DNA from: Alienimonas californiensis
Lineage (GTDB): Bacteria > Planctomycetota > Planctomycetia > Planctomycetales > Planctomycetaceae
NCBI RefSeq assembly: GCF_007743815.1
Contig: NZ_CP036265.1
Span: forward strand, 5,277,823-5,341,822
DNA: 64,000 bases
Direction of reading: 5' to 3'
Position numbers and translations under genes: made by a program. This document shows, in pieces, positions 5,043 to 56,587 of the stretch (positions are counted from its first letter, which is position 1; the number at the start of each line of letters is the position of its first letter). The notes beneath the pieces are model-generated. The model ran no database searches. It was not told the DNA's origin and saw only the letters and a list, made by a program, of their open reading frames with translations.

Positions 5043-6164
5043 ATGCTCGCCACCGCCCTGCTCCTCGCCGCCATGTCCGCCGACCCCGCCGCGAACTCCC
5101 CCGCGACCGCATCGAACGCTGCCGGGTCAATCCCGGTCTATCTCGGCACGGGCGCCGACGGCATCTACTGGACGACGCTCGATCCGGCGACGGGGGCTCT
5201 GAGCGAACCCACGCGGGCCGCCGCAATCGAGCGGCCGGGGTTTCTCGCCGCTCATCCCTCCGGTCGGAAGCTGTACGCCGTGACCGAGGGCACCTCCGTG
5301 ACGGAGTTCACCGTCGAAGGGGACGGTTCCCTGACGGAAACGGGCGAGGCGTCGGTCGCCCCCGGCGGCGCGAACGCGGGGCCGTGCCATGTCGACGTGA
5401 TGCCCGGCGGCGGCGCGGTGATCGCGGCGAACTACGGCGGCGGGAGCGTCTCCTCCTTCTCGCTCTCCGCCGACGGATCGCTCGGCGAGCGCGCCAGCTT
5501 CGTCCAACACGAAGGGTCCAGTGTCGATCCGAAGCGGCAGACGGCGCCGCACGCCCACTGCTCCACCCCGGCGCCGGGCGGACGGTTCGCCGTCTTCGCC
5601 GACCTGGGGCTCGACAAGCTGTTCGTCTACGAGGTCGACGCCGAGACCGGCGCCCTGTCCGAGCACAGCGTCGCGGACACGCCCCCCGGCGGCGGCCCCC
5701 GGCACATCGCCTTCACTCCGGACGGTCGGTTCGCCTACTGCTGCCTAGAGATGGGCAACGAACTGCTCGCCCTGAAATGGGACGGCGAGGCCGGCACGCT
5801 CACGCCGATCGAGACGAAGCCGACGCTCCCGGAGGACTGGACCGGCGGGGGCACGACCGCCGAGGTCCGCGTGCACCCCGGCGGATCGTTCGTCTACGTG
5901 ACGAACCGCGGCCATAACAGCATCGCCGTCTACGGCATCGCGGACGACGGCACGCTGACCCCAGTCGAGATCGCCCCGGCCACGGTGGAGATCCCCCGCG
6001 GGATGAACCTCACGCCGGACGGTCGATTCCTGATTGCCTGCGGGCAGAACACGGACGACGTCGTTTCGTTCTCCGTGGACCTGAAGACCGGGCGGCTCAC
6101 CCCCACCGGCTCCCGGGTCAGCGTCCCGAAGCCGATCGACGCGCTGCCGCTGCCGACCCGCTAA
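5043..6164 (+). CDS. Secreted lactonase family beta-propeller protein (6-phosphogluconolactonase-like)
   Basis: The 373-residue protein begins with a signal-peptide-like stretch ([11 protein letters not shown]) and then shows repeated propeller blades, each with a pattern like [10 protein letters not shown] or TPDGRFAYC and terms such as [11 protein letters not shown]. Spacing and repeat type match the Pgl/lactonase family (seven-bladed). Cytoplasmic members hydrolyse 6-phosphogluconolactone. The export signal here suggests an extracytoplasmic lactone or sugar substrate, which is an inference. An alternative start at 4956 would add 29 residues of Gly/Pro/Arg-rich sequence before the signal peptide and is less likely. 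A TATGGT-like -10 box lies only about 10 nt before ATG, so the message may have a very short leader. Confidence 0.8.
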
Positions 6165-6289: not shown

Positions 6290-6400
6290 AGGCGTGGCGT
6301 CGGTATCGCCCGCGGCATGCAGGGAGGCCCGCCGCCCGTCGGCGACGACGGGGCCGCCCGCGCGACCGCGGTCCGTCCCGGTTCCCGCCGAACGCCGTCG

Positions 6401-12400: not shown

Positions 12401-13240
12401 CAGTGGGAGGGGGCGCTGCTGGCGCACGTCGTCTCCACGCTGGAAGATCTCGGCGGCTTCGCGGCACCAAACTGGGGCGAGCGGTCCGTCGTCGAGGTGA
12501 CCGGGGAGGACAAACCGGCGACCTGGTTCCTGCACGCCAAAACCGCTCAGGAGTGGTTCTGCGCCCTGACCTTCCGCGTGAAGCAGGGCGCCTTCGATCA
12601 GGACGCGCTGCGGCGCCGCTTCCCCTGGAAGCCGGCGGACGAACTGGATCTGCCGGTCTACGGTTCAGACGCCCGAGTACGGGCCCGCAACCTCGCGGGC
12701 GGCTGGCAGGAGATCACCTTCAAACCGCACTGGTTGAAGGAGGTGACCACGCCGGAGTTCAGCGCCTTCCTGGAAGAAGCCCGGGCGAGCTATCTCGACG
12801 CCGCCGCCCCCGCCGACGACGCGGAGGACGACCGTGCCCCGTGGGAACGCCTGGGCCGGGGGTGGCACGCCTCGCCGCAGGGTTTCGTCGGTCGCGGGCC
12901 GAAGTGGAAGCCGGAGGTGCTGGACGCCCTCGCCGACAGCATCGCCGCCGCGGTGCCGGACGCCGCAGCGACCTGGACGGCGAAAACCGTCGTGCCGTTC
13001 AAACGTAACGGCGACGCCGACGCCTTTGCCGAACTGCACACCAAACGCCCCGCCGGGTTGGACCTGACGATCGCCGTCGAGCCCGGTTCGCTCGCGCTGG
13101 GACGGGTGGCGTCGCTGGGGGCGGAGCGGGAACTCGCTCGGCACCGCGGCGGGGAGGCGGTCAAACTGCGGTTCCGCACCGTCACGCAGGCGTCCGACCC
13201 GCGGTTGCGAACGCTGCTCGCCGAGTTGGCCGGCGGCTGA
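6401..13240 (+). CDS. uvrA: Giant tandem excinuclease ABC subunit A (two UvrA units in one polypeptide)
   Basis: The protein of about 2279 residues contains two full UvrA copies head to tail, where a typical UvrA is about 940. UvrA finds DNA lesions in nucleotide excision repair and loads UvrB. Four Walker A loops are visible: GVSGSGKSS near residue 52, GVSGSGKSS near 680, GPSGSGKSS near 1028 and GVSGSGKSS near 1641. Each unit has two ABC signatures (LSGGEAQRI or LSGGESQRI type) and Walker B LDEP motifs. The C-terminal zinc finger ([10 protein letters not shown]...CPVC and [10 protein letters not shown]...CDAC) is intact in both. The first copy lacks the CPSC pair seen in copy two after the YARxG segment, and its first finger reads SCPESG instead of ACETC. 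A tail from about residue 1935, roughly 340 residues, matches no domain I recognise. ATG 6401 is preferred over 6317, whose extra 28 residues look untranslated. A basic KKK stretch follows the start. Confidence 0.93.
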
Positions 13241-22173: not shown

Positions 22174-23985
22174 ATGCTCCGCCCCGCCCGCGGTTTCGAT
22201 CGGCCCGCTCCCTCCGAGCGGCCGCGGCATTCCCTCCGGCGGCTCTCGGCCCGCTGGTTCGGGGGCCGTCGCTGGGTCGGTGCCGCGGCCCTGCTGGCCG
22301 GGCTGGCCGTCCCCGCGGGCCTCGGGGCCCAGGCCTACACGAGCTTCTACGGCCTGCGGGCGTACACGACGTACACCGACCCCTACTCCGGCGCCTCCAC
22401 GCAGACCGTCCGGCCGTTCTGGGACGTCCTCGGCGTGTTCCAGCGGCCGGTGGTCGCCTCGGGTTCGGTCGTCTCCGCGGGGTACGCCTCCCCGAGTTCC
22501 TACAGTGCCTCCTACGCCCCGGCGTCCTACGGCACGTCGTATTACGGCGGCAGCTCCTACGCTCCGGCGGTCTCCTACTACGGCGATTCGGTCTACGACT
22601 CGAGCGCGACCTATTACGGCGGGACGGTGACGGACGGCGCCCTCGGCGGCTCGTTCTACAACTCCAGCTACGCCGGCGGGGCGTTGCCGTACCGGGGGAC
22701 GACCACCTACAGCGTCTACGGTTCGTCCCGCGGATCGGTCACGCTCGGCGACGCCTGCTGTCAGCCGGCGCCGGCCTGCTCGCCCTGCGCCGATCCCTGC
22801 GGGGGGAATGCCTGCCAGGGGGGGAACTGCACGTCGTATTCCGTCCCGGGCGACGACGACGTGATCGAATCCGATCCCGTCTTCGCCGATCCGCCGGAGG
22901 ATCTGGACCCCGTGCCCTCCCGTCGGCCCTCCCGCCCGTCGACGCGGGATCGCGACCGGGACCCGCTGGACGATCTGGAGCCGCCGTCGTTCGAGGACTC
23001 CTTCGACGACGCCGCCCCCTCAGATCGGCCCCGCCCCGCCCCCCGGACCCGGCCCGAGGATTCCGTCCGCGACGAGTTCTCCGACGAATTCCCGGACGAC
23101 GAACGGCCGACCGGCGATCCGTTCGAGAACCCGCTGGACGACGGGGGCGACTTCGGCGCCGACCCGATGACCGGAACGAACTCGGACGGCGATTTCGGCG
23201 ACGCCCCCGGCAGCGGCGTGCGGCCGGCGGAGAACACCGCTCCCTTCCGCCGCGACCGCGGCGGCCTCGCCGAACCGCCGGGCGCCCGCACCCGGCCGGT
23301 GCCCTCCACCGACGAATCGTTCTCGCCGCTCGACGACCCCACGACCGGCAACTTCCAGGACTCCCGCCCCAACGGCGGTGCCACGCCGGGCAACTACGGC
23401 GCCAACCCGGGCGGCGTCCAACGGCCCAGCGGCACGGGGGACGCCTTCGGCGGCGATCCGGACAACGTCGGTCGCCCCGGCGACGGCGCCTTCGCCGACC
23501 CCCCGGGCGAAAGCCCCGCCTTCAGCGACGAGTTCTTCGAAGAGGACGTGTTCGGGAACGATCCGAACGCCCGCTCCTCGTTCCGACTGGAGCCGAACGA
23601 CGTCGACCTCACCGGCCCGCCGACCTCGGAGGATGAGGACGCCGCCGGGGAGACCGCGGACGGGACCGACGCCCCCGAGGACGCCGCCTCCAACGGAGAC
23701 GCCGCCGAAGACGCGGACGCCGCCGACCCGGATTCGGCCCGGCTGTCGGCGCCGGAGCCGGAGAGCGGCCCGACGCTGGACCCCGCCGAACCGGCCGAGC
23801 CGTCGGCCCCCGCCTCCGGCGACGCGGCCGCCGCCCAACCGCGGCTGATCACCGCGCAGCTGCTCCACGAAGACCTGCGTCGGACGCGGCTGACGCTCCG
23901 GGTCGGCCACACCCGCATCGCCCGCTTCCGTCACCGGCCGGTCGATTCCGCCACGACCCCGGACGTGCAGATCGCCGCCCAGTGA
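22174..23985 (+). CDS. Secreted Tyr-rich/acidic low-complexity protein, function unknown
   Basis: This 603-residue protein was not assigned to a family. A basic N-terminus and hydrophobic core (WVGAAALLAGLAVPAGLGAQA) form a signal peptide near residues 28-50. Residues about 55-180 are rich in Tyr, Ser and Gly (SYSASYAPASYGTSYYGGSS). A Cys-rich patch (CCQPAPACSPCADPCGGNAC) sits near 190-210. The remainder to about 570 is Asp/Glu/Pro-rich and probably disordered. The composition suggests a cell-surface or matrix protein with cysteine cross-links, which is inference. ATG 22174 is chosen 40 nt after a good promoter. The earlier ATG 22033 would precede the promoter. The stop overlaps the polX GTG by 4 nt. 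Confidence 0.7.
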   Translation: MLRPARGFDRPAPSERPRHSLRRLSARWFGGRRWVGAAALLAGLAVPAGLGAQAYTSFYGLRAYTTYTDPYSGASTQTVRPFWDVLGVFQRPVVASGSVVSAGYASPSSYSASYAPASYGTSYYGGSSYAPAVSYYGDSVYDSSATYYGGTVTDGALGGSFYNSSYAGGALPYRGTTTYSVYGSSRGSVTLGDACCQPAPACSPCADPCGGNACQGGNCTSYSVPGDDDVIESDPVFADPPEDLDPVPSRRPSRPSTRDRDRDPLDDLEPPSFEDSFDDAAPSDRPRPAPRTRPEDSVRDEFSDEFPDDERPTGDPFENPLDDGGDFGADPMTGTNSDGDFGDAPGSGVRPAENTAPFRRDRGGLAEPPGARTRPVPSTDESFSPLDDPTTGNFQDSRPNGGATPGNYGANPGGVQRPSGTGDAFGGDPDNVGRPGDGAFADPPGESPAFSDEFFEEDVFGNDPNARSSFRLEPNDVDLTGPPTSEDEDAAGETADGTDAPEDAASNGDAAEDADAADPDSARLSAPEPESGPTLDPAEPAEPSAPASGDAAAAQPRLITAQLLHEDLRRTRLTLRVGHTRIARFRHRPVDSATTPDVQIAAQ

Positions 23986-38281: not shown

Positions 38282-40249
38282 CTAGAACACCCACACGGCC
38301 GCGGCGGTGCCGGCCGCGGCGAGGGCGGTCGCGGCGGCGAGCAGCCAGGGGCCGAGCGGTTTGCGGACCGGCCCCAGACGCAGGGCGTACCGCCGCGAGC
38401 CGAGGGTCAGCACGTCGCCGTGGCCCAGTTCCCCGCGGGCGCCGCCGTGCAGAGGGGCGTCGTTAATCGCAACGCCGCCGCCGAGGTCGACGACGCTCCA
38501 GCCGCGGCCGTTCCAACGGAACTCGCAGTGCACCGGGGCGGCGCCCGGATCGGTCAGCCGCACGTCGCAGTCGGCGGAGCGACCGAGCGTCAGCCGGCCG
38601 CCGCGGACAGGGATCTGGGGGAGGAACCAGCTGGCCAGCCCGGCGGGCGTCAGCCGGGTGGGCGGGGAGATCGCGGGCAGTTCCAGGCTGCTCGGCGTCG
38701 GCTCCGCCGCCATCGGCGGGGCCTTCGGAGACCAGTCATCGACGACGCTGGAGTCCGGGGCGACGTCGGATCCGGCGCCGGCGTCGGACTCCCGCCGTCG
38801 GCCGACGTGCGACAGGCGGGAGAAGGAGTCCCGCACCTGCGAGCCCTGCTCCGCCCCGAGGATCTGCGAGGCGAGGTCCGCGGCGCTGCGGCCCGTCCCG
38901 AGCGGGGCGGCGGTGAGGATCGACGAGGAATCGTCACGGCGTCCGGCGTCCGGCCGGGCGGTGTCGAGGTCGGCGGTGGTGCCGGTTTCGCGGTCGGACT
39001 CCGACGGCGCCTGCGGCGGGGCCGAGTCCGGCAGAACGTCCGGCTTCTTCGTGCGGGCGGCCTTTTGGGCCGCCTCTTTCCGCCGCCGCTCCAACTTCAT
39101 CGCCGCGGCCCGGGCGCGGGAGTTCAGAATCGCCTCGAAGTCGAAGGCCACCGGCTTGCGGCGGCAATACGGCTCCAGCGCCGCGGCGACTTCCGCGGCG
39201 TCGGCGGGGCGCTCGTCCGGCTCTTTCGCCATCAGGCGGGCCACCAGCGCCGCGACTTCCGCCGGGGTGTCCGGCGCCTTGCGACGCACGTCCGGCACGG
39301 GGTGGCGACGGTGGGCCCGAAGCACGTCCCGCCCGGTGCGGGCCGGGTACGGCACGCGGGCCGTCAGCAGCGAATACAGCGTGCAGCCGAGCGAATACAG
39401 GTCGGCCCGCGGGTCGATCTCCGTGCTGTTGCGGCTCTGCTCCGGCGCCATGTAGTCGGCGGAGCCGACGCAGTCGTGGCCGAAGATCATCTGCAAACTG
39501 AACTCCGCCGCCGCCTGGTCCGTCAGCAGGGCCAGGCCGAAGTCCGCCACCTTCACCGTGCCGTCCGCGGCGACCAGCAGGTTCGCCGGCTTCACGTCCC
39601 GGTGAATCAGGTACGCTTCGTGACAGGCGGCCAGCCCCAGCGCCGCCTGACGGGCGATGTCGCAGGCGGCGCCGCTTCTGACCGGCCCGCCCCGGATCAA
39701 CAACTCCTCGGCACTGACCGCCTCGACGTACTCCATCACCAGCAGGTGATCGCCGGGGCCGTTGTCCGCCTTGCAGAACCGCAGGGACCGCACGACGTTA
39801 GGATGGTCCACCCGCCCCGCGGCGACGCCCTCGTATCTCAGCCGGGCGATCATGCCGGCGTCGTCGCGGAGGCCCTCGGCGAGCACCTTGAGGGCGACCT
39901 TCCGCCCCGCCGTCGGACCGTCGCCCTCGTCCCGGGCGACGTAAACATTGCCCATCCCGCCGGCCCCCAGCACCGCCAACAGCCGGTAGCGGTCGAGGAA
40001 GAACCCGCGGTAGCGCCCGGCCCGCAACCGGTCGGCCTGATAGCGGGTCAGCAGCCCCTCGCGGACCAACTCGGACGCCGCCGCCTCCGGGCTCCAGCCG
40101 CCCAGGCTCTGCGTCAACTCGGCGACGCGAGCCTCGGGGAGCAGGTCGCTCTTGCCAAGCGTCTCCAGCAACCCGCCGGCGTCGCCGGCCCGGGCGATCG
40201 AGTCCTTCCGCGCAGCGGGGACGTCGGCGGTGGATCGGGAGCGGGGCAC
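38282..40249 (-). CDS. Ser/Thr protein kinase with C-terminal FHA domain and membrane anchor
   Basis: The protein of about 655 residues shows an N-terminal segment LLTRYQADRL typical of planctomycete kinases. The kinase domain follows with glycine loop GAGGMG (95-100), Lys121, HRDVKPANLL (216-225), DFG (236-238) and APE (268-270). A Lys/Glu-rich linker precedes an FHA domain (about 560-630, LTLGRSADCDVRLTD) that would bind phosphothreonine, and a single C-terminal helix (GPWLLAAATALAAAGTAAAVWVF) anchors it as a tail-anchored protein. All catalytic residues are present. GTG 40249 is chosen. GTG 40324 is an in-frame alternative. Confidence 0.88.
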   Translation of the reverse strand: MPRSRSTADVPAARKDSIARAGDAGGLLETLGKSDLLPEARVAELTQSLGGWSPEAAASELVREGLLTRYQADRLRAGRYRGFFLDRYRLLAVLGAGGMGNVYVARDEGDGPTAGRKVALKVLAEGLRDDAGMIARLRYEGVAAGRVDHPNVVRSLRFCKADNGPGDHLLVMEYVEAVSAEELLIRGGPVRSGAACDIARQAALGLAACHEAYLIHRDVKPANLLVAADGTVKVADFGLALLTDQAAAEFSLQMIFGHDCVGSADYMAPEQSRNSTEIDPRADLYSLGCTLYSLLTARVPYPARTGRDVLRAHRRHPVPDVRRKAPDTPAEVAALVARLMAKEPDERPADAAEVAAALEPYCRRKPVAFDFEAILNSRARAAAMKLERRRKEAAQKAARTKKPDVLPDSAPPQAPSESDRETGTTADLDTARPDAGRRDDSSSILTAAPLGTGRSAADLASQILGAEQGSQVRDSFSRLSHVGRRRESDAGAGSDVAPDSSVVDDWSPKAPPMAAEPTPSSLELPAISPPTRLTPAGLASWFLPQIPVRGGRLTLGRSADCDVRLTDPGAAPVHCEFRWNGRGWSVVDLGGGVAINDAPLHGGARGELGHGDVLTLGSRRYALRLGPVRKPLGPWLLAAATALAAAGTAAAVWVF

Positions 40250-40407
40250 GGGCAGAACGCGGTCGCGGGAAATGCGTCCGGAAACAGCTTTGAAGTGTGG
40301 CGAGCGCCGGACATAAAGTATCACCCCGCCCCCGGTCCGGGGAAGCACGTCGTGTGCCCGGCCCCGTTTTTCATTGACCGGGAGCCGAACCGTCCGGTCC
40401 CGCGGGC

Positions 40408-41829
40408 TCAAGCTCCGGGATCGCCCGATTCCAGCATCCGGCCCAACTCGGTCGACCGGTTCCGCAGCCGATCCAGTTCGTCCGCGAAGGCTGGATCGGT
40501 CGCCAGATTCTTCAATTGCAACGGGTCGGCGGAGAGGTCGTGCAGGAACTCGAAGGGGGGCGACTGCTCGTAATAGTTGGCGTAGACCCATCGCTCGCCT
40601 CGCACGCCCTGCCACTTAGGAATGCGGGGGTGGTTCATCCGGTGCTCCGCGAGAAAGTCCGTCCGCCAGTCCGCCGGCGTCTCGCCCTTCAGGATCGGCA
40701 CGAGCGACCGGCCCTGATAGTGCTCCGGCACCGATTGGCCGCAGGCGTCCAGCATCGTCGCCGGCAGATCGACGTTCAGAGCGATCGCGGCGACGTCCCG
40801 GCCGGCCTCCTGCTCTGACCCCGCAATGCCCGGGGCGGCGGCGACCCCCGGCCCGGCGACGACCAGCGGCACCCGCAGGCTCTCCTCGAAGTGCGACCAC
40901 TTCCCGGCCAATCCGCGGGAACCCATGTAGTAGCCGTTGTCGCCGGTGACGATCACCAGTGTTTTCTCCAGGCGCCCGGCCTGCTGCAGCGCCGCGATCG
41001 CCCGGCCGACGTTGCGGTCCGCAGCGCTCAGCAGGCGATAGTAGTCACGGGTGTTGCGCTCTCGCTGAAAGTTGGAGTGCCAGCGCCACTGCCAGCGGTC
41101 GCGGTTCATGCTCTCCTGCAGGAACGTCGGCAGGGCGTCGAACGCCTTCGGCGGGGCCGGGCCGATCGAGGGGAGTTTTTCGTCCCGGTACAACTCGGCT
41201 TCGGTCTCCGGGTAGGGGTAGTGATCGCGCAGGTCGCTGTCTTCGGCGTGGCCGGCGTTGAAGGAGAGCGACAGGCAGAACGGCTGATCCGCCGGGGTCG
41301 AGGCGACGAACCGCTCCGCGGCGTCGCCGATCAGGTCCGCGGTGTGCCGCAGCGTGCCGTCCGGCTGTCTGCGGAAGTAGGGGGAGCGGTCGATCGGCGT
41401 GTAAACGTCGAACATCTCCGCCTGGGATCCCCGCGGCACGCCCACGCCGAACTTCCCGGCGAAGCCCGTGCGGTAGCCGGCCCGCTTCAGGACGGCCGGG
41501 TAGCTGTCCCGAATCAGTTCCTCCCGCAACGGCGGCTTGCCGAAGGTGTAGCCGTGGGAGAGTTCGTAGTGCCCGCTGAAGATCGTCGCCCGGCTGGCGG
41601 CGCAGATGCTGGTCGTGACGAAGGCGTTTTCGAACCGCACCCCGCGGGCGGCGAGGGCGTCGATGTGCGGCGTCTTCAACACCGGATGTCCGGCGCAGCC
41701 GAGGTGGTCGTGCCGGTGATCGTCCGTGAGGACGAACAGCACGCTGACCGGCGGCGAGCCGGCATTGCCCCCCTGCCCCCCCGCGTCGGGGGCGGCGGCG
41801 AGTAGGGCAGTCAGCAGGAGGGCTGTCAC
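40408..41829 (-). CDS. Exported sulfatase
   Basis: The 473-residue protein has a signal peptide (TALLLTALLAAAPDAGG), then the sulfatase N-terminal core SVLFVLTDDHRHDHLGC and the formylglycine site CAASR (Cys-x-x-Ser-Arg; Ala replaces the usual Pro). Downstream are metal-site segments such as VTGDNGYYMG and KWSHFEESLRVPLVV. It should hydrolyse sulfate esters after Cys is converted to formylglycine by a separate enzyme not in the window. GTG 41829 overlaps the stop of the dehydrogenase gene by 4 nt. Last gene of the SGNH / dehydrogenase / sulfatase operon. Confidence 0.9.
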   Translation of the reverse strand: MTALLLTALLAAAPDAGGQGGNAGSPPVSVLFVLTDDHRHDHLGCAGHPVLKTPHIDALAARGVRFENAFVTTSICAASRATIFSGHYELSHGYTFGKPPLREELIRDSYPAVLKRAGYRTGFAGKFGVGVPRGSQAEMFDVYTPIDRSPYFRRQPDGTLRHTADLIGDAAERFVASTPADQPFCLSLSFNAGHAEDSDLRDHYPYPETEAELYRDEKLPSIGPAPPKAFDALPTFLQESMNRDRWQWRWHSNFQRERNTRDYYRLLSAADRNVGRAIAALQQAGRLEKTLVIVTGDNGYYMGSRGLAGKWSHFEESLRVPLVVAGPGVAAAPGIAGSEQEAGRDVAAIALNVDLPATMLDACGQSVPEHYQGRSLVPILKGETPADWRTDFLAEHRMNHPRIPKWQGVRGERWVYANYYEQSPPFEFLHDLSADPLQLKNLATDPAFADELDRLRNRSTELGRMLESGDPGA

Positions 41830-44800
41830 GGGGCGTCGCCGGGGTTCGGGGAAGCGTTGGTTGAAGAGGGCCCGGCCGCCGCGGCGGGGGCGTCGTCCAG
41901 GTCGATGCGGAGGGCGTCCGCGGTGCGTTCGTCGGGATTCACCGCCAGGGTGACCCACCGGCCCTCCGCCGGGTCCAGGGTGATCGCGGCGCCCTCCACG
42001 TCCTCCTCGGCCAGGCGGCCGAGGTCGTAGCGGATCGCGGCGCCGGCGCCGGAGTACTGCCAGAGCGTCACGCCGGAGGCGTCCGCCTCCCCCGCCCCGT
42101 TCAGCACCCGCAGGGTGACCTGGCCGGTCGCGTCCTCCGGCAGGGGGAACCGCAGCAGGGCGACTTTCAGGCCGCCGAAGAAGTTCGCGGTCGGCAAATC
42201 CGCCGTCGGCAGGGCGCCGGAGACCTCGGAGAACCGGGTTTCCCACGGGTATTCGGACGGCCGCTCCGCCGCGTCGCCGAGGCCGTTGGCCCGCAGGCTC
42301 TGGCTGATCGCTCCCCAAATTTCGGGGGAGTTCACCACCTGCCAAGTCCGCACGCGGCGGCCGGGGGCGACGCGATAGTCGCCGCTCTTGCCGAGCGCCC
42401 CGAGGAACGCCACCAGATCCGCCAATTCGTCCGGCCGCAGGGAGGCGACGAGGTCCTCCGGCATCAGCGAGACCGGGGAGACCTCTGCGTCCAGCACGGA
42501 CGCGGTCGGCACGACGACCAGCTTTCCGTCCGCGTCCCGCAGGGTGTAGGCCTCGTCCGTCTGGGAGACGAGCACGCCGTTGAGCACGACGCCGTCGTCC
42601 CGCAGCACGGTGAGGGTGGCGTAGCCCTCCTTGATCTTCGCCGACGGCTTGAGCAGCGATTCGAGCAGGTAATCCAGCTGGGCGCTGCCGCCGATGCTGG
42701 TCAGGTCCGGCCCGACCAGCCCGCCGGCGCCGCCGATCGCGTGGCAGTCCAGGCACTTCAGCTTCGCCTGCCGATAGACCGCTTCGCCGCGGGCCGGGTC
42801 GCCCTGGGTCCGGGCGCGTTCGACCAAGGCGGCGAACTGCTCCGGCGTGAGGTCCTTGACCGGCTCGATCCCGCCGGCAGACCGCAGCGCGGCTTCCAAC
42901 CCCGCCACGCGGCCGCCGCGGCCGGTGAGGGTCCGCAGGGCGTCGGCGGCGACGGTCTCCGGCAGCGATTGGTCCTTCAAAGCGGCGGCGAGAGCCTTCG
43001 TACCGGCGTCGGTCGCGGCGAAGGCGGCGACCAGATCGGCTCCGCTCCCGCCGGCTTTCAAACGTTCGACCGCCAGCGGGGCCGCCGCGTTCGCGTCCAC
43101 CTTCGCCAAGGCGACGAGGGCGCTGGCAGCGCCCGGGCCGGACGCGGCGGCGATCCGCTTCAACTCCGCCCGCCCCTCCTTGCCGAGGTTCGCCAGGGCC
43201 TCCGCGGCGGAGAACCGCACCTGTCGCGGGAGTTCGACCGTCTCGGCGACGCCGGCCAGATCGCTCACCGCCCCGGTTGCCTTCCACAGGCCCAGCAGTT
43301 CCGCGGCGGCGATGCGGACGGCGTCGTTTTCGTCCGCCAGCAGCCCCCGCACAAGGCGGCCCTCATCCTCCGGCACGATCTTGCGGCGGGCGGCGGCGGC
43401 CAGGGCGGCGAGCGTCGCCGGCTTCGGGGCCTGCGGGTCGTCCAGCAGTTTGGCGGCCCGTTCGACCGCGGCGGCGTCGCCGAAGCGGCCGATCAGGGCC
43501 AGCACCTCGCCCCGCTGGGCGTCGTTGAGCGAACCGGCGTCCCACAACGCCAGCGCCGGCGGGAGGGCGGCCGGGTCGGCGGCGGCGGCGAGGGCGAACA
43601 GCAGCCGGTCCGGCGAGCCGAAGTAGTCCGGGTCCTCCGCCACCTTCGGCAGCCATTCGCTCGCCAGTTCCCGAGCGGTGAGCCGCAGGGCGTAGGAGAG
43701 GTTCTCGTCCAGCGGGTGATCGACGGCGACGAAGGCGTCCCGGGCGGCCTCCGCCGAGCCGAGCCGGCGGAGCATGTTCACCGCCTCGAGCCGCACACGG
43801 GGGTGCGGGTCGGCGGCGAGGGCGGCGAGGCGGGCTCGCTGGTCGTCTCCCCGCTCGACCGCGAAGCCCAGGACGCGGGTCGCCGCAGCCCGGAGGCGGT
43901 CATCGTCGTCGGCGAGCGCCGCTTCCCGCAGCCCCGGCATGTCGAGCCGCAAAGCCTGTGCGAGCCACAACGCCTCCAACCGAGCCCGGCCGTCGTCCGC
44001 CGGCCGATCCCCCACCCAGGCGAGCAGGTCGGGCCAGACCGCGTCCGCCCCGCGGGCGATCAGCAGCCGGCGGGCCATGTCCCGCACCCAGCGGCGGGGG
44101 GAGGCGAGTTCGTCCAGCAGTTCAGGCGTCGACAGGTCGACCAGCCGCGGCCCTGCGGGGCCGGCGGCGTGATCCATTCCCTTCGGTGCCATCCGCCAGA
44201 TGCGGCCGTGGATTTTGTCGCGGCGGGGGTCGCGGAAGTCGACCTCGCCGTGCTGGATGATCGGGTTGTACCAGTCGGCGACGTACACGGCGCCGTCCGG
44301 GCCGACGTGGGCGTCGATCGGACGGAAGGCGACGTGATCGCTGCCGAGCAGGTCCGCGGTCTGCCGGGCGACGTAGCCGCTGCCGGTCGGGGCGTCGTTT
44401 ACCTCGAAGGCGTTGACCCGATGGCCGCGGAAGTCGCAGGTGACGAACCGGCCGCGCCACTGTTCGGGGATTGCCGGGTCGTCGAGGATCGCCAGCCCGC
44501 AGTGCTTCGGCTGGCCGGGGGACAGGCCGTGCAGGATGTCGTCCGTGCCCACCGCCGTCGGGAATGCGGAGCCCGGGAAGACGGGGGTGATCCCCTCGCC
44601 GTTCGCCCCGTCGGTGGCGAATTCCTGCCCCCACTGGTCAAAGCGGTGCCCCCAGGGGTTGATGAAGCCTCGCGCCCAGACTTCGAGCTTGCCCACGTCC
44701 GGCTCGTACCGCCAGATGCCGCCGCCGTCGAGCCGCTCCAAGCCCAGCGGGGTCTCAATCTGGGAGTGAATGTAGATCGACTGGTTGAAGTAGATCTCCC

Positions 44801-45359
44801 CCGCCGGCCCGGCCCGCAGGGTGTGCAATATGTGGTGGGTGTCCTCCGTCCCGAAGCCGTCCAGCACGACGGTCCATTCGCCGGGGACGTGGCGGTCGGC
44901 CCGGCCGTCGCCGTTTTCGTCCCGCAGATAGAGCAGTTCGGTGCTGTTGGCGACGTAGGCCCCCTGCCCGTCCGCGTCCGGCAGCACGCCGGTGGGGATC
45001 AGCAGGCCGTCGGCGAAGACGGTCGTTTCGTCGGCGGTCCCGTCGCCGTCGGTGTCATCGAGGATGACGATCTGGTCGTTCGCGACCTCCCCCGGCTCCA
45101 ACTGCGGATAGACCCGGCTGGTGGCGACCCACAGGCGGCCGCGGGCGTCCCAGTTGGTTTGAATCGGTTTGGCGATGTCCGGATCGGCGGCGAACAGCGT
45201 CACCTCCCAGCCGTCGGCGGGGGCGAACGCGGCCCGCTCGGCGACGGGGTCCGGCGCCGGAATGTCCGTCAGATCCCGCTGGGCGAAGGCCGGCGAGGCG
45301 TGAAGAGCGAGGAGAGAGGAGGCGAGAAGGGCGAGCGGAACGGGGCGGGCGAACGTCAT
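41826..45359 (-). CDS. PVC-type heme-binding membrane-bound dehydrogenase with HEAT repeats and cytochrome c domain
   Basis: The 1177-residue exported protein has a signal peptide (LALLASSLLALHASPAFA). A six-bladed propeller-type dehydrogenase domain (about 45-400) contains NWDARGRLWVATSR and HVGPDGAVYVADWYNP. HEAT repeats (about 410-830) follow, then a cytochrome c segment with CLDCH (Cys869, Cys872, His873) and GLVGPDLTSIGG, and a beta-sandwich at the end. Such proteins are abundant in Planctomycetes and Verrucomicrobia and are thought to oxidise sugars or lactones and pass electrons to heme. Both overlaps with neighbours (ATGA at 45356, GTGA at 41826) tie it to the SGNH and sulfatase genes. 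Confidence 0.9.
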   Translation of the reverse strand: MTFARPVPLALLASSLLALHASPAFAQRDLTDIPAPDPVAERAAFAPADGWEVTLFAADPDIAKPIQTNWDARGRLWVATSRVYPQLEPGEVANDQIVILDDTDGDGTADETTVFADGLLIPTGVLPDADGQGAYVANSTELLYLRDENGDGRADRHVPGEWTVVLDGFGTEDTHHILHTLRAGPAGEIYFNQSIYIHSQIETPLGLERLDGGGIWRYEPDVGKLEVWARGFINPWGHRFDQWGQEFATDGANGEGITPVFPGSAFPTAVGTDDILHGLSPGQPKHCGLAILDDPAIPEQWRGRFVTCDFRGHRVNAFEVNDAPTGSGYVARQTADLLGSDHVAFRPIDAHVGPDGAVYVADWYNPIIQHGEVDFRDPRRDKIHGRIWRMAPKGMDHAAGPAGPRLVDLSTPELLDELASPRRWVRDMARRLLIARGADAVWPDLLAWVGDRPADDGRARLEALWLAQALRLDMPGLREAALADDDDRLRAAATRVLGFAVERGDDQRARLAALAADPHPRVRLEAVNMLRRLGSAEAARDAFVAVDHPLDENLSYALRLTARELASEWLPKVAEDPDYFGSPDRLLFALAAAADPAALPPALALWDAGSLNDAQRGEVLALIGRFGDAAAVERAAKLLDDPQAPKPATLAALAAAARRKIVPEDEGRLVRGLLADENDAVRIAAAELLGLWKATGAVSDLAGVAETVELPRQVRFSAAEALANLGKEGRAELKRIAAASGPGAASALVALAKVDANAAAPLAVERLKAGGSGADLVAAFAATDAGTKALAAALKDQSLPETVAADALRTLTGRGGRVAGLEAALRSAGGIEPVKDLTPEQFAALVERARTQGDPARGEAVYRQAKLKCLDCHAIGGAGGLVGPDLTSIGGSAQLDYLLESLLKPSAKIKEGYATLTVLRDDGVVLNGVLVSQTDEAYTLRDADGKLVVVPTASVLDAEVSPVSLMPEDLVASLRPDELADLVAFLGALGKSGDYRVAPGRRVRTWQVVNSPEIWGAISQSLRANGLGDAAERPSEYPWETRFSEVSGALPTADLPTANFFGGLKVALLRFPLPEDATGQVTLRVLNGAGEADASGVTLWQYSGAGAAIRYDLGRLAEEDVEGAAITLDPAEGRWVTLAVNPDERTADALRIDLDDAPAAAAGPSSTNASPNPGDAP

Positions 45360-46111
45360 TCGGTCTCTGCTTTCACGATCTCTTGACGAAGGGCCTGAAT
45401 CTCCGCGTCCTTCGCGGCGACCAGCGGCTCGAACTGTTCAATTTCCACGGCGTTGTTGCCCTGCTCGTGGGCGCGGAAGCCGCGGAGGTAGGTCTCGTTT
45501 TGCGGGCGGTGACGTTGGAAGAACAGGTCGTTCTTCTCGCGGATGAGGCTTTCGATCGGGGCGGCGGCGACCCGCTGCGACCGCAGCGGCTTCGCGACGG
45601 CTTCTTCCGTGAGGACCCGCAGCCCGCGGCGTCCGGCGATCGACCGGACCGCGGCCGCGTACGGTTCGGCGTCGGCCGGAGACACGAGGACGACCCGGTC
45701 GGTCCGCTTGATCAATTCGTCCAGCAGCGACTCCATATTCTGCTCGAAGTCGTCCACGCTCATCCCGCCGGGTAGCGACTCGGCCTGCCCGTAGGCGACG
45801 AAGATCACCGTCGGCTCGACCAGATCAACGTGCTCCAACAGGTGTTCCCGCCCCTCCTTCGCCGTCTTGAAGAAGCGACGGGCGGACTGGTCGGCCATAT
45901 CGCCGGCCCAGCCGAGGTGCCGGAAGGTCACGTCGGCCGGACCGTTCATCGTCCGTTCCGCTTCGAACCGACCGCTGCGGCGTTCCGCCTCCCAGAGGCT
46001 CCCGCCGACGAAGGCGACGCGGTCGCCGGGCTTGAGCAGCGGTTCGGGGACCGCATCGTCCGCGAAACCGCAGGCGAGCGCCGTGCAGGCCAGGGCAAGC
46101 GTGATGGGCAC
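45356..46111 (-). CDS. Exported SGNH/GDSL-like hydrolase
   Basis: The 251-residue protein has a short signal peptide (ITLALACTALACGFA). The SGNH block-I like segment GDRVAFVGGSLWEAE has Gly-Gly-Ser where GDS is usual, a block-II Gly in LGWAGD and block-III like FVAYGQAES with Gln for the usual Asn. No clear block-V Asp-x-x-His is seen. The residues around 175-220 are charged and helical. It may therefore be a binding variant rather than an active esterase. It is first in the operon and its stop overlaps the dehydrogenase start by 4 nt. Confidence 0.75.
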   Translation of the reverse strand: MPITLALACTALACGFADDAVPEPLLKPGDRVAFVGGSLWEAERRSGRFEAERTMNGPADVTFRHLGWAGDMADQSARRFFKTAKEGREHLLEHVDLVEPTVIFVAYGQAESLPGGMSVDDFEQNMESLLDELIKRTDRVVLVSPADAEPYAAAVRSIAGRRGLRVLTEEAVAKPLRSQRVAAAPIESLIREKNDLFFQRHRPQNETYLRGFRAHEQGNNAVEIEQFEPLVAAKDAEIQALRQEIVKAETE

Positions 46112-46190
46112 AGGGGATTCCCTCTCGGGTGGCGGGGGTCGCGGCGGGGCGGCATCCTACGGATGAACCGCCCCCGATGGGAACGAGCCC
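46112..46190. promoter_or_regulatory. Divergent promoter region between SGNH operon and sulfatase gene
   Basis: 79 nt separate two divergent starts (ATG 46111 and GTG 46191). Both transcription units, which encode the two sulfatases of the window, must be controlled from this stretch. I could not place convincing -35/-10 pairs in it. Confidence 0.45.
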
Positions 46191-47612
46191 GTGCCGCTTC
46201 GCTTCGTCGCCTGCGTCCTCCTGACGTGCGCCGCCCTGCCCGCCCTCCCCCGACACGCCGCCGCGGCGGACAGACCGAACGTCCTGTTCCTGCTGACGGA
46301 CGATCAGCGGGCGGACACGATCGCGGCGCTCGGCAACCCGCACATCGTCACGCCGAACCTCGACGCGCTGGCCAACCGTGGGTTCAGCTTCTCGGAGTGC
46401 TACTGCCTGGGGGGGAACAGCGGGGCGGTCTGCTTTCCCAGCCGGAACATGCTCCTCTCCGGCCGCACCTACTTTCGGCACGAAGTGAAGCAGGGCGGCC
46501 GCACCTCCGCCGACCCGGCCAAGCCGAACTTCGCCGCGGCCCTGGGCGCCGCCGGATACGAGACCTACCACCACGGCAAGAAGGGCAACACGGCCACCCT
46601 CCTTCACACGCGGTTCGAGCATTCGAAGTACCTGTCGAACGACCACGAAGTCCGCATGAGCGGCCAGCCGGGCGAAGAGATCGTCGACGCGGCGTTGGAG
46701 TTCTTTGAAGAACGCGACGACGACCGCCCCTGGGCGATGTATCTCGCGTTCTCCACCCCGCACGATCCGCGGGTCGCGGCGGAGGAGTATCGGTCGCAAT
46801 ACGACCCGGCGGACCTGCCGGTCCCGCCGAACTTCCTCCCCCTGCACCCCTATCAAATTGGGTCCGACGTGGTGCGGGACGAAGTGCTCGGCCCCTTCCC
46901 CCGCACGCTGCCGGATACGCGGGCCCAGATTCACGACTACTACGCCGCGATCACCGGACTCGATCACCACATCGGCCGGTTGCTGGCGGATTTAGAGGCC
47001 CGTGGCGAATTGGAGAACACGCTGATCGCGTTCAGCTCCGATCACGGCCTGAGCCTCGGCAGCCACGGGCGGTTCGGGAAGCAGTCGCTCTATCGCGAGA
47101 GCATGCGGGCCCCGCTGATTCTCGCCGGCCCGGGCGTCCCGCACGGCAGCAGCGCGACGCCGGTCTATCTGCACGACATCTACCCCACGATCTGCGACCT
47201 GCTGGAGATTGACCCCGCCGGCGGTTCGACCGTACCGGCGGAGTTGCACGGCCGCTCGTTTAAATGGGCGCTGGGACAGGGCAAGGGCGGGCGGCCGGCG
47301 CTGTTCGGTTCCTATCTGGACGTGCAGCGCAGCGTGTACGACGGCCGGTGGAAGCTGATCCGGTTCCCGCAGATCGGCGTCACGCGGTTGTTCGATCTGG
47401 AAACCGACCCGCACGAGATCCTCGACCTGGCGTCCGACCCGGCCCAGGCGGAGCGGATTGAGGAGCTTTTTGCCCTACTCAAAGAGCTTCAAAAAGAGGT
47501 CGGCGACGATCTGGACCTCGACGCCCCCGCGACGATCGACGACCCGACGTTCACCCCGCCGAATGCCGCCCGGTTGGAGGAACTCCGCCGGCCGTGGAAG
47601 GGCCGCAGCTGA
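46191..47612 (+). CDS. Exported sulfatase
   Basis: The 473-residue protein has a signal peptide (FVACVLLTCAALPALPRHAAA), then NVLFLLTDDQRADTIAALG with the metal-binding Asp pair. The formylglycine site CFPSR follows near residue 84, then HHGKKGN, SSDHGLSLGSHG and FGKQSLYRESMRAPLIL. All expected active-site elements of a type I sulfatase are present. It is most like the iduronate/choline-sulfatase group by the KxLYRESMRAP segment. GTG 46191 is chosen at the signal peptide start. It is divergent from the SGNH operon and convergent with the GH3 gene. Confidence 0.92.
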   Translation: MPLRFVACVLLTCAALPALPRHAAAADRPNVLFLLTDDQRADTIAALGNPHIVTPNLDALANRGFSFSECYCLGGNSGAVCFPSRNMLLSGRTYFRHEVKQGGRTSADPAKPNFAAALGAAGYETYHHGKKGNTATLLHTRFEHSKYLSNDHEVRMSGQPGEEIVDAALEFFEERDDDRPWAMYLAFSTPHDPRVAAEEYRSQYDPADLPVPPNFLPLHPYQIGSDVVRDEVLGPFPRTLPDTRAQIHDYYAAITGLDHHIGRLLADLEARGELENTLIAFSSDHGLSLGSHGRFGKQSLYRESMRAPLILAGPGVPHGSSATPVYLHDIYPTICDLLEIDPAGGSTVPAELHGRSFKWALGQGKGGRPALFGSYLDVQRSVYDGRWKLIRFPQIGVTRLFDLETDPHEILDLASDPAQAERIEELFALLKELQKEVGDDLDLDAPATIDDPTFTPPNAARLEELRRPWKGRS

Positions 47613-47622
47613 GGAGTTCATT

Positions 47623-51393: not shown

Positions 51394-52197
51394 TCACGCG
51401 GCGACGCGTTCCTCCGCGTCCTCCTTCGCCTCGACGCGGCCCTGGGCGGCGACGGCGGCGGCGTGCTCCTCGTCGCCGGCCCGGCCGGCGGGGCGGGAGT
51501 CCAGTTCTTCGACCCGGTTGCCGTTCGCGTACACCAGCAGCGTGTCGTAAGGCCGAATCAGCGTCTCCCCGTGCGGCGCTCCGACGTACGCTCCGCCCTT
51601 CCGCTGCACGCCCAACACCAAGACGCCCTCCTGCGGCAGGGCCAGTTGAATGAGCGTCTTGTTCGCCAGCCAGTCCTCCGGTTCGACTCGCAATTCGCTG
51701 ATGACGTAACCCTGCGCGAGGTGCAACAGGGCGACGTAATCCTGCACGTTGAGGGAGGTATATTTCCGCAGCGCCCGGGAAATAATCCGGTTGAGCCGGC
51801 GTTCCACCCATTCGCTGTTCGCCAGCCAGATCAGCGTCAGCGTCCCGGCGATAAACAGCCCCACGGCCTTCCAGATCGCCCACGGATCGTAGTTCTCGTC
51901 GCCGGGCCGGGCGGCGTCGTTGATTGAGGCGACCGACAGCATCACCGTGCCGGCGACCGTCGCCACGCCCAGGTTCCCCAGCAACATCAGGATCATCGCG
52001 ATCCGCCGGCGGACCGGGTGATTCATGACGCTTTCCGCCTCATGGGTGGCGTACCCCACGCCGGTGAAAGTGCTGCGAGCCTGAAAGCGAGCGCTTTCCC
52101 GGCTCATCCCGGTCGCCATGAACGCGACCGTGGCGACCCGGGTCACCACCAGCGAGATCGCCAGCGTCGCCAGCAGGGACAGGAACGCGGCGGCCAC
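51394..52197 (-). CDS. Membrane protein with TrkA-C (RCK_C) domain
   Basis: The 267-residue protein has membrane segments near 4-25, 62-82 and 100-120, the loop ARSTFTGVGYATHEAESVMNHPVRRR, and a cytoplasmic TrkA-C type domain (about 165-245, with LPQEGVLVLGVQRKGG and RPYDTLLVYANG). RCK_C domains bind ligands that gate potassium transport. The protein lacks a selectivity filter and may be a regulator of ion transport. The C-terminus is Glu/Ala-rich. GTG 52197 begins the first helix. It is divergent from the transglutaminase-like gene. Confidence 0.82.
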   Translation of the reverse strand: MAAAFLSLLATLAISLVVTRVATVAFMATGMSRESARFQARSTFTGVGYATHEAESVMNHPVRRRIAMILMLLGNLGVATVAGTVMLSVASINDAARPGDENYDPWAIWKAVGLFIAGTLTLIWLANSEWVERRLNRIISRALRKYTSLNVQDYVALLHLAQGYVISELRVEPEDWLANKTLIQLALPQEGVLVLGVQRKGGAYVGAPHGETLIRPYDTLLVYANGNRVEELDSRPAGRAGDEEHAAAVAAQGRVEAKEDAEERVAA

Positions 52198-52420
52198 GCG
52201 GGGAGACTCGGAACGGGGGCGACAGAGGTCGGGGCGGCTCAAACCCCGGACGGAGCGCGGGGTTATGCGCCTCGAACTGCTCGCCGGCAAGGCGCGAACC
52301 GGGCTTTGCCTCCGATCCCCGCAGATCGGGCCGCGACCGCGGGTCCTTCGCCCTGTACACTGTGGGAATCGCCCCGACCCCGTTTCGTTCCGCCCGGGGC
52401 GGTCCGCTCCCCACGCCGCC

Positions 52421-55400
52421 ATGCCCGCCACCGACATTCTGTCCTTCGATTGCCCCGGCTGCGGCAAGACGTTGAAGGCCAAGCCCTCGCACGCCGGCCG
52501 CACCACCGCCTGCCCGAAGTGCGGCGAATCCCTCACCGTCCCCACGGCCGGGGGCGCAGCGGACGACCTGCAGGAAGCGTTCACGCAGGAACCGGCCGCG
52601 GACGCCGCCGCCGGGTTCGAGCCGCCGGCGGAGGAGGTCGAGGAGTTCCCGCCGATGATCCGCACCGGACCGGTGGTCCGCGACGAACCGGAAGACGAAC
52701 CCACGGACGAAGCGGCGGAAGCGGCCCCGGCGATCGAACGCCCCGCGTCCCCGCGGAGCCGTGGCGGTCGGCGGCGGGGTCGCTCGGCCGACGACGGGGA
52801 GGCCCGTACGAAGACCCTCCCGCTGGCGATCGGCGGCGGCGCCGTGGCGGCGTTGGGCCTCGGGCTGGCCGCCTGGGCCTTCTGGCCGGGCGACGAGACG
52901 GCGACCGCTGACGCCGGCCTGCTCACCCCGATCGCGGAACAGTCGGCGACCGAGGGAGAAACGCTGGAGGTGGTTCTCGTCCCCGCCGACCGGCTGGGAT
53001 CGATGGCCGAAACCCACGCCCTGACCCTCACCCAGGCCCCGGACGGCGCCCGCATCGGCCGCGACGGCCGGACCTTCACCTGGACCCCCGGCGAAGCGGA
53101 CGGCCCGGGCGTCGCGTCGGTCACCGCGGCGCTGACCCACCGGGCGACCGGCGAGGCCGCGGAGACCGTCGCCTTCGACATCCAGGTCGCCGAAGAGGAT
53201 CTTTCCCCCTGGATCGCCCCGCTGGCGGCGGTCACCGTGGGGCCGGGCGAATCGCTGACGCTGAAGGTCTCCGCGGAGGACCCGGACCAGCCGGCCAACG
53301 CCCTCGCCTTCGAACTGGAGGGCGACGTCCCCGCCGGCGTGAGCGTGGACGGGGAGGGCGTCATCACCTTCGCCCCGCCGGCCGACGCCCCCCAGGTGGA
53401 CTCCGCCTTCGGCGTGAAGGTCGTCGAGCAGCGGGCGGACGGCACGGCGGGCGCCAGCTCCGTCGCCCCGGTCCGGCTGTCGGTGATGTCGAAGAACGCC
53501 CCGGGCCGGAAGCCGGCGTCCGCCGAACCGGAGCCCGCCGTGGCGATGGCGGAGCCCGCCGCCCCGGACACGCCGGTACCGGCCGCGGACGAACCGGCGA
53601 TGGCGGAGAGCGCCGTCGCCGACGCGGCGATGACGACGCCCGACGCCGCGACCGCCGCGGAAGGCACGACCGTCGCCATGACGGACGATCCCGCCCCGGC
53701 GGAGTCGATGCCGGAACCGATGCCGGCGCCCACGGAGGAGCCGGCCCCGGCGGAGTCGTCGGAGGGCGGCGTGAGCGCCAGCGTCACCGCGATGCTTGGC
53801 AACGAGGCGGCCGTCCCGCTCAACGAGAACGCCGCGGCCTACGAGGAGAACTTCGTCGCCCCGCTCGTGGCGATGTACGGCGGTCCGGACGAACGCCGCC
53901 GCCCGCTGCTCTCCCCCAAGGAATATGGCACGCTGCGGGCGCTGTTCGCGGAGGAGTTCGCCCGCGCCCACGAGGACCAGATTCGCGCCGGCTTCGGCGA
54001 GAAGGCGGACGAGATCATGGCCTGGCTGAAGGAACGGCCGGAGGTGCGGGAGACGCTGTTCAACGCCTTCAAACCCTCCGACGACGTCGCCGCCGGCATG
54101 ACGGTGTTCCGTCAGCTCTATGACGAGTTCGGCGACGGACTCGACAAATACGGCGGCCTGGCGACCGCCGCCGCGGTGGTCTGGGACGATCCGGAGCGCG
54201 GCCCCTACAATTACGAGTTTCACGCCAAGCGGGCCAAGGCGACGCTGCCCGCGTCGGAACTCCCCGCGGCGGTGGAGAACGTGCGTTATTTCCTCGACCG
54301 CGAAGCCGCCATGCAGGGCCGGGCGGAGCGTCTCCCGTGGGAACTGCTCGTCCTGACCGTCGACCACGAGACCCCGATCGACGAGCGGGACTGGGCGCTG
54401 ACGATGTACGGCAACGTCCGCAACCAGTTCGGGAAGTGTTATTCGCAGGTGCCGTACGACACGAACATGATTAAAACCGACGAGCGCGAGACCGAGCTCG
54501 ACGGCCTGCCCTATACCCTGCCGACGATTCTGGAGAAGGGCGGCGTGTGCGCCCACCAGGCGGACTACGCCGCCCGGGTCGGCAAAAGCCTCGGCGTGCC
54601 GGCGATGTACGTCCGCGGCGACGGCAAATTCGGCGGCGCCGGCCACGCCTGGGTCATGTGGGTGGACGTGACCGGTGTGACGGACTCCGCGTTGAAGTTC
54701 ACCCTCGAAAGCCACGGCCGGTATCAGGACGACAATTATTACGTCGGCTATCTGAACGAACCGCAGACCGGCGAAGAAACCACCGACCGCGACCTCATGC
54801 GGCGCCTGCACTCCGTCGCCACCGACCGCAACGCCTCGCGCCACGCCGACCTGCTGATGCGGGCCTACCCCATCGTGGCGCAGCGGGCCGGCGAAGGCGG
54901 CGAGGAGCTTTCGATGGACGCACGGCTGGATTACCTGGACGCCGTCAACCAGATCGACACCTGGAACGGCGCCGCCTGGCGGGAGCGGGCGCGGCTGGGA
55001 ACTGAGAACGCCGGCAATCTCTCCAAGGACCAAACCCGCCGCTATAAACAGGACCTCAAGCGGCTGTTCCGCGACTTCGCCCCCTTCCCCGACTTCACCC
55101 AGGAGGTGTTCGCCGGGATCAGCGTCTACGAGACGGACGAAGAAAAGCGGCTCGAATTGACGCGGCAGCTCTTGGACGCCTACGCCGCCGCCGGGCGGCC
55201 GGACCTGTCGTTCGAGACCCTGCCGGCCTACGTCGACAGTCTGATCGCGCAGAACCGCACCGCCGAGGGCGTCGGCCTCATCACCGACGCGTTGATGAAA
55301 TATGCCGACGAGGGCCGCTACACGCCGGCCGCGCTGGACCGGCTGGACGAACTCGGGGCGGAGTCCCCCCAGGAGTTGATCGAGTTTTACAAAGGGTTCG

Positions 55401-55576
55401 TCATGGCGATCCCGCCGACGCGGGGCAATTCGCCCAGCGAATACGCGGTCGCCATGCACAAGCGAATCATCGAAAAGGCCCAGGCGGCCAATATGCCCGA
55501 CGTCGCCGAGTATTTCACGGAGCGGATGCGGGCGATCGGTTCCGGCAAATTGAAAACGAAGAACGGACAGCGCTAA
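52421..55576 (+). CDS. Large zinc-ribbon/membrane protein with transglutaminase-like domain
   Basis: In this 1051-residue protein a zinc ribbon (Cys11, 14, 31, 34) and an acidic linker precede a membrane helix near 133-153. Two Ig/cadherin-like beta domains (about 165-350) follow, with the typical planctomycete phrase GRTFTWTPGEADGPG. A long Pro/Ala/Glu linker leads to a transglutaminase-like catalytic region with Cys710 (GGVCAHQADYA), His742 (GAGHAWVMW) and Asp749, an intact triad. Helical repeats end the chain. It could cross-link or cleave envelope proteins or act as a peptidase. The obgE start follows its stop directly. Confidence 0.85.
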   Translation: MPATDILSFDCPGCGKTLKAKPSHAGRTTACPKCGESLTVPTAGGAADDLQEAFTQEPAADAAAGFEPPAEEVEEFPPMIRTGPVVRDEPEDEPTDEAAEAAPAIERPASPRSRGGRRRGRSADDGEARTKTLPLAIGGGAVAALGLGLAAWAFWPGDETATADAGLLTPIAEQSATEGETLEVVLVPADRLGSMAETHALTLTQAPDGARIGRDGRTFTWTPGEADGPGVASVTAALTHRATGEAAETVAFDIQVAEEDLSPWIAPLAAVTVGPGESLTLKVSAEDPDQPANALAFELEGDVPAGVSVDGEGVITFAPPADAPQVDSAFGVKVVEQRADGTAGASSVAPVRLSVMSKNAPGRKPASAEPEPAVAMAEPAAPDTPVPAADEPAMAESAVADAAMTTPDAATAAEGTTVAMTDDPAPAESMPEPMPAPTEEPAPAESSEGGVSASVTAMLGNEAAVPLNENAAAYEENFVAPLVAMYGGPDERRRPLLSPKEYGTLRALFAEEFARAHEDQIRAGFGEKADEIMAWLKERPEVRETLFNAFKPSDDVAAGMTVFRQLYDEFGDGLDKYGGLATAAAVVWDDPERGPYNYEFHAKRAKATLPASELPAAVENVRYFLDREAAMQGRAERLPWELLVLTVDHETPIDERDWALTMYGNVRNQFGKCYSQVPYDTNMIKTDERETELDGLPYTLPTILEKGGVCAHQADYAARVGKSLGVPAMYVRGDGKFGGAGHAWVMWVDVTGVTDSALKFTLESHGRYQDDNYYVGYLNEPQTGEETTDRDLMRRLHSVATDRNASRHADLLMRAYPIVAQRAGEGGEELSMDARLDYLDAVNQIDTWNGAAWRERARLGTENAGNLSKDQTRRYKQDLKRLFRDFAPFPDFTQEVFAGISVYETDEEKRLELTRQLLDAYAAAGRPDLSFETLPAYVDSLIAQNRTAEGVGLITDALMKYADEGRYTPAALDRLDELGAESPQELIEFYKGFVMAIPPTRGNSPSEYAVAMHKRIIEKAQAANMPDVAEYFTERMRAIGSGKLKTKNGQR

Positions 55577-56587
<1,011 letters not shown>

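Follow-up and report, generated by a model that had tools for sequence, protein, structure and literature searches.

A predicted SGNH-like pseudo-hydrolase encoded beside a PVC-type heme protein and two sulfatases in Alienimonas californiensis

The stretch of DNA analysed here (64,000 nucleotides, referred to as the window) contains between positions 40408 and 47612 four genes, whose reading frames we recovered from the ORF listing and the sequence exactly where the original prediction had placed them. Three of these lie on the minus strand: an SGNH-like protein, P0003 (45356-46111; 251 aa, GTG start), which by its residues is a predicted pseudo-hydrolase with Ser38 kept, Ala at position 110 and no block V; a PVC-type heme protein, P0002 (41826-45359; 1177 aa), which starts with a DUF7133/TIGR02604 N-terminal domain, continues with HEAT repeats and a CxxCH site and ends in a C-terminal tail; and sulfatase A, an S1-type protein (40408-41829; 473 aa, GTG start) with a signal-like N-terminus and a CAASR motif containing Cys76. 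The fourth gene, on the plus strand, encodes S1-type sulfatase B (46191-47612; 473 aa, GTG start), likewise with a signal-like N-terminus, and with a CFPSR motif containing Cys81. The PVC gene is the only one of the four to start with ATG, and the sulfatase A ORF of the mechanical listing starts far upstream, at 43287. Both of the claimed 4-nt start/stop overlaps on the minus strand can be read from the sequence, ATGA at 45356-45359 linking the SGNH-like gene to the PVC gene and GTGA at 41826-41829 linking the PVC gene to sulfatase A, as can the 79-nt gap between the divergent genes (46112-46190), a candidate shared promoter. From this layout the three minus-strand genes appear to be co-transcribed, in agreement with the tight coupling that had been proposed for them, while 4-nt overlaps are not rare in the window: at least two more GTGA overlaps, at 1780-1783 and 23982-23985, join mechanically listed ORFs. 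Elsewhere in the window, the largest ORF listed occupies 6317-13240 on the plus strand (2307 aa), and at 52040-55591 two very long ORFs of 1183 aa (minus strand) and 1152 aa (plus strand) share a stretch on opposite strands.

The gene order and both overlaps recur in locus L031 of G007, the only other genome of the genus sampled, where the ATGA overlap is found again and the equivalent of the GTGA overlap is also 4 nt long (5717-5720). Identity between the two genomes is 81% for the PVC protein, 72% for the SGNH-like protein and 83% and 80% for the sulfatases, and the recurrence of overlaps and order indicates that the layout is not due to chance. It also speaks for the original prediction, according to which an esterase, an oxidase and a sulfatase encoded in one operon, together with the divergent sulfatase, would strip acyl and sulfate groups from one sulfated glycan and oxidise it, as both the tight overlaps and the shared divergent gap return in the genus mate. 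The cluster is, though, the right edge of a longer collinear stretch (window, about 22 kb; mate, about 18 kb), and linkage in the genus mate thus does little to support the cluster as such; collinearity ends right after sulfatase B (window position 47614), yet the mate contig (G007:C79) runs for more than 20 kb further. The gene directly downstream of sulfatase A (38282-40615, minus strand), which is collinear in the genus mate, encodes a Ser/Thr kinase domain followed by an FHA domain at the C-terminus. The divergent gap was also considered as a strongly conserved promoter and rejected: 69 of its 79 columns (87%) are identical to the genus mate, and 29% of the 79-nt windows in the aligned block are equally conserved.

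The assignment of P0002 to the PVC-type heme proteins is well founded, with profile matches of 243.5 bits to TIGR02604 (cut-off 122.2) and 111 bits to TIGR02603 (cut-off 68.15). Its single CxxCH heme site (C869/C872/H873) and M966 do not vary across alignment A4, whose 17 rows include the window protein, and among solved structures the CxxCH part (A4 profile positions 860-995) is best matched by 7zs0, entered as 'Hypothetical (Diheme) protein' (E 2.5e-31). Genes above the TIGR02604 cut-off number 12 in the genome of the window and 19, 10 and 23 in three relatives. A purified protein with the three-domain make-up of P0002, Lac161_ORF7, is reported to have hydrolysed lactose with a Km of 1.8 mM (PMC5342196), and for this reason the name 'dehydrogenase' is not to be assumed for P0002; the glycosidase idea comes from one report, and dehydrogenase is the older name of the family. 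Oxidation of a glycan by P0002 is possible. From N-terminal appearance only, we infer that the proteins of the cluster are exported.

P0003 itself does not match any profile in Pfam (at E 0.01) or NCBIfam, and its SGNH label derives from its relatives, as 7 of the 7 scanned match the GDSL profile PF13472 above cut-off, and from its predicted fold. The P0003 model (mean pLDDT 82.2) aligns with SGNH esterases with a Z score of 12.8 and an rmsd of 2.8 over 141 residues, and the model of a full-length relative, L041, matches BT4096 (7br2) with Z 20.4 across 261 residues, the GDSL enzymes that rank next giving Z 16-18. The alignment explains the missing profile match: the block V stretch is gone and Ala stands at the block III Asn. 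In both genomes of the genus, block I reads GGS with Ser38 present, the block III Asn is replaced by Ala110 (GQAE) and the segment with the block V Asp-x-x-His is missing, leaving profile positions 161-241 (window) and 152-240 (mate) unmatched. In a lipase from Streptomyces rimosus, exchange of the Ser, the block III Asn or the block V His for Ala is reported to have abolished activity in each case, whereas the enzyme functions with Asn at the block V Asp position (PMC10779480), and hence this Asp is not decisive. Two of the three residues essential in that lipase are missing from P0003, and the 'SGNH hydrolase' of the original prediction finds no support as an active enzyme.

The same comparison was extended to the SGNH domains of the fetched loci, in which 98 hits reduced to 77 non-redundant domains and to 76 after removal of the partial row L082. 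The Ser-Asp-His triad is present in 0 of these 76 domains: the nucleophile position holds Thr in 56, Ala in 12, Gly in 4, Ser in 3 and a gap in 1, and the block V Asp position holds Asn in 59, Asp in 11 and other residues in 6, while the block V His is kept in 66 and the block III Asn in 54. Most relatives thus have the His without the Ser, and P0003 has the Ser without the block III Asn and the block V His, such that catalysis appears to have been lost by different routes; by residue criteria, P0003 is a pseudo-hydrolase. The idea that the protein is active after all, as an esterase or acyltransferase in which Thr or Ser works with a non-canonical general base, could draw on Ser38 in this genus, on the Thr, the block III Asn and the block V His that most standalone relatives have and on the Asn tolerated in the S. 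rimosus lipase, but such an enzyme would have to operate in this genus without the block III Asn and the entire block V segment, and Ala or Gly occupies the nucleophile position in 14 of the 25 long ORFs with a divergent C-terminus; we consider the idea improbable. An unusual Thr-based activity is possible in the relatives, not in the window protein.

Gene order in relatives bears directly on the suggested module, and here the SGNH-like/PVC pair retains its linkage (17 of 34 loci, and 26 fusions). Across 61 genomes of the family, both genes are present in 44 and neither in 14, with the PVC gene alone in 2 and the SGNH-like gene alone in 1 (Fisher p 7.7e-11, uncorrected for phylogeny); the thresholds for presence (an E value of at most 1e-10 for SGNH and more than 40% identity for PVC) were chosen after seeing the hits, to exclude a paralogous class, and G020 (PVC 40%) and G051 (38%), which fall under them, were scored absent. 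Three single-contig genomes (G001, G004 and G048) retain both genes despite megabases between them. We fetched 34 core loci, one per genome, from the 44 non-own genomes above threshold, and in 17 of them a PVC gene lies downstream of the SGNH-like gene and shares its strand. In 15 of these 17, the distance to the first candidate start ranges from -4 to 140 nt; it is 781 nt in L034, and in L040 another gene intervenes. Candidate ATG starts overlap by 4 nt in L031, L041 and L053 and by 1 nt in L062. The other 17 core loci have no adjacent PVC gene, and linkage is hence not strict. Adjacency was taken from tblastn coordinates, because the custom gene caller had skipped the SGNH-like gene in L034 and L039, sulfatase A in the window and sulfatase B in L086.

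In 26 non-redundant ORFs, an SGNH domain is followed by a PVC domain in a single frame, in the same order as in the gene pair. These fused ORFs span several families of the phylum, and two of them (L125, L051/L126) come from the genome of the window itself. At L126 (G000:C1:3635500-3643500) the own-genome SGNH-PVC locus extends over two frames of 918 and 1003 aa, which may represent either two genes or a single disrupted gene. The pair of SGNH-like and PVC-heme proteins, and not the whole operon, is the evolutionary unit; our literature searches found no published description of an SGNH-PVC pair.

A further feature of the SGNH-like family is the C-terminal signature RPxNxTYLxxFRxxEQGxNA, at about residues 193-230 of P0003. 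In an alignment of 32 rows that includes both genomes of the genus, 28 columns are invariant, and the stretch from residue 202 to residue 221 accounts for 13 of these: R202, P203, N205, T207, Y208, L209, F212, R213, E216, Q217, G218, N220 and A221. Such conservation, much of it in the signature, together with the open frame and signature retained in both genus genomes at 72% identity, makes it very improbable that the P0003 gene is decaying and simply travels with the operon, a reading to which the large internal loss and missing Pfam match of the protein might otherwise have pointed. In the AlphaFold models, pLDDT falls below 50 at residues 204-212 of P0003 and at residues 262-277 of a relative: part of the signature stretch is the lowest-confidence region in both, although this may stem from thin alignments of 26-32 rows only. 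A conserved segment that lacks a fold of its own is expected where a protein contacts a partner, and the models suggest that the signature is the segment touching a partner protein. The EQG of the signature is found in 3 of the 26 fused ORFs versus 44 of the 50 other rows, fusions being undercounted here as L112 and L123, placed among the 50 'not fused' rows, are clipped by locus ends within long open frames. The signature is thus mostly missing from the fused class and cannot be required in every SGNH-PVC pairing.

For the two flanking genes, the sulfatase assignments are upheld by PF00884 matches of 147.6 and 145.2 bits. Formylglycine-type sulfatases follow the motif rule C-x-[AP]-x-R, and formylglycine-type motifs can be read in both proteins, CAASR in A and CFPSR in B. 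The 5.48 Mb single-contig genome of the window has 65 sulfatase-profile matches, and in a genome so rich in sulfatases the cluster as such is nothing unusual. Of the solved structures, the one nearest to sulfatase A is P36_S1_25 (6hr5; 281.8 bits, the next reaching 174.4), which is described as an exo-3-sulfo-L-rhamnose sulfatase acting at the non-reducing-end rhamnose of ulvan fragments, and SWF4, an S1_25 member from a fucoidan system, is entered as exo-3-sulfo-L-fucose (PMC8511951, PMC9096561). Both activities would suit the desulfation of a glycan; the kinship with P36_S1_25 does not fix the sugar of sulfatase A, since S1_25 includes the fucoidan enzyme too.

In case of the sulfatases, the proposal of a conserved module failed in the gene order of relatives: linkage to the pair is lost for both outside the genus. 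Their best relatives there, up to 59% (A) and 57% (B) identical, are located elsewhere, and in the 20 loci fetched around such relatives (12 for A and 8 for B, 48-57% identical) we found no SGNH-like match and no adjacent PVC match, with distant PVC matches (28-30%) in three: about 4 kb away in L078 and about 6 kb away in L088, both on the opposite strand, and at 2.6 kb in L094, where the heme domain stands alone. Sulfatase presence does not significantly co-occur with PVC presence (p 0.07 for A, 0.49 for B), and A and B are found together in 1 of 59 genomes outside the genus (p 0.0099 for avoidance). In four complete genomes, a circular-shift test with the sulfatase matches listed gave proximity at the level of chance, as 5 of 64 PVC genes lie within 5 kb of a sulfatase (4.99 expected) and 6 within 8 kb (7.75 expected); G033 leans the opposite way, with 2 of 10 within 5 kb (p 0.10) and 3 of 10 within 8 kb (p 0.05) for the sulfatase matches listed. 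The PVC set in this test comprised genes above the family cut-off only, and the sulfatase matches listed were 59 of 65 in G000, leaving out four split pieces and two weak hits, 38 of 45 in G018, 35 of 47 in G033 and 77 of 96 in G038.

The sulfatases were accordingly rejected as a conserved part of the unit, on the grounds of the relatives' loci, the co-occurrence data and the circular-shift test; their genes look like a local addition beside the pair in this genus, where they may form a desulfating module. Sulfatase genes do adjoin two divergent-class SGNH-PVC loci, L050 (genus mate, three genes) and L067 (another genus, one gene), and further sulfatases that share 24-28% identity with A or B lie within the loci of about 20 kb L032, L033, L035, L046, L047, L049 and L054. 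These neighbourhoods favour the deacylation, oxidation and desulfation of one glycan by the four proteins, but the esterase residues are gone from the SGNH-like protein and neither co-occurrence nor proximity ties the sulfatases to the PVC genes, and we regard this explanation as unlikely, though clearly less so than an active esterase.

We consider it probable that the core of the locus is an exported complex of a PVC enzyme and a dedicated, non-hydrolysing SGNH-fold subunit, to which sulfatases became attached in this genus. This reading draws together the co-occurrence, the gene order, the natural fusions, the loss of catalytic residues, the SGNH fold kept in the models and the near-invariant signature. 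The PVC-type protein, with its propeller, HEAT and heme-c parts, would be the enzyme and would act on a saccharide or a similar small organic substrate; the SGNH-fold pseudo-hydrolase would dock on it through the C-terminal signature and, once docked, bind or shape the substrate site of the PVC protein, hydrolysing nothing itself. The two sulfatase genes would have joined the pair in this genus, one in the operon and one divergently, and their products might trim a sulfated oligosaccharide before or after the PVC step. More tentatively, with the odds slightly against it, PVC-type cytochrome enzymes in general may have a dedicated non-catalytic SGNH-fold subunit, encoded adjacently, remotely or as an N-terminal fusion, with a near-invariant signature that takes on its fold only when bound to the partner; the genus of the window would then be the limiting case, in which the entire catalytic corner was deleted and the contact part kept. 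Against a two-subunit arrangement stand the half of the core loci without an adjacent PVC gene and the fused class, which mostly lacks the signature. This group is rich in PVC-type cytochrome proteins, and their function is little known: if the subunit reading is true, they have a partner that profile searches would name a GDSL lipase (PF13472) despite its missing lipase residues, and a set of annotations would be corrected, while the two proteins would need to be expressed jointly, which might explain missed activity.

Among known systems, Lac161_ORF7 (AGW45552) shares the domain order TIGR02604, HEAT and TIGR02603 with P0002, to which it is likened by architecture alone; it derives from verrucomicrobial soil DNA and was assayed on lactose, and the main text of the report mentions neither SGNH nor GDSL (PMC5342196). 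In freshwater Verrucomicrobia MAGs, sulfatase genes are described as often lying near PSCyt genes, as in the window, which lends some further support to a glycan-directed module; those neighbourhoods concern PSCyt1-3 with PSD1-5 domains (PMC5615132), whereas for TIGR02604 genes we found no enrichment near the sulfatase matches listed in four complete genomes. P36 of Formosa agariphila is reported to be fused to a GH78 rhamnosidase (PMC8511951, PMC9096561), whereas the Pfam scan found no glycoside hydrolase among the five neighbouring ORFs it covered. With SGNH/GDSL hydrolases (PF13472), L041 has the fold in common (for example Z 16.6 to Axe2), the nearest solved folds being BT4096 (7br2), 4q9a and the Axe2 acetylxylan esterases, and BT4096 spans the C-terminal helix in the structural alignment with L041; compared by fold, the SGNH-like family differs in lacking the catalytic residues and in having an extra C-terminal signature region. 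Oskar (OSK), whose SGNH domain is eukaryotic, RNA-related and without a cytochrome partner, carries a catalytically inactive SGNH domain and hence offers a precedent for a non-hydrolytic SGNH fold.
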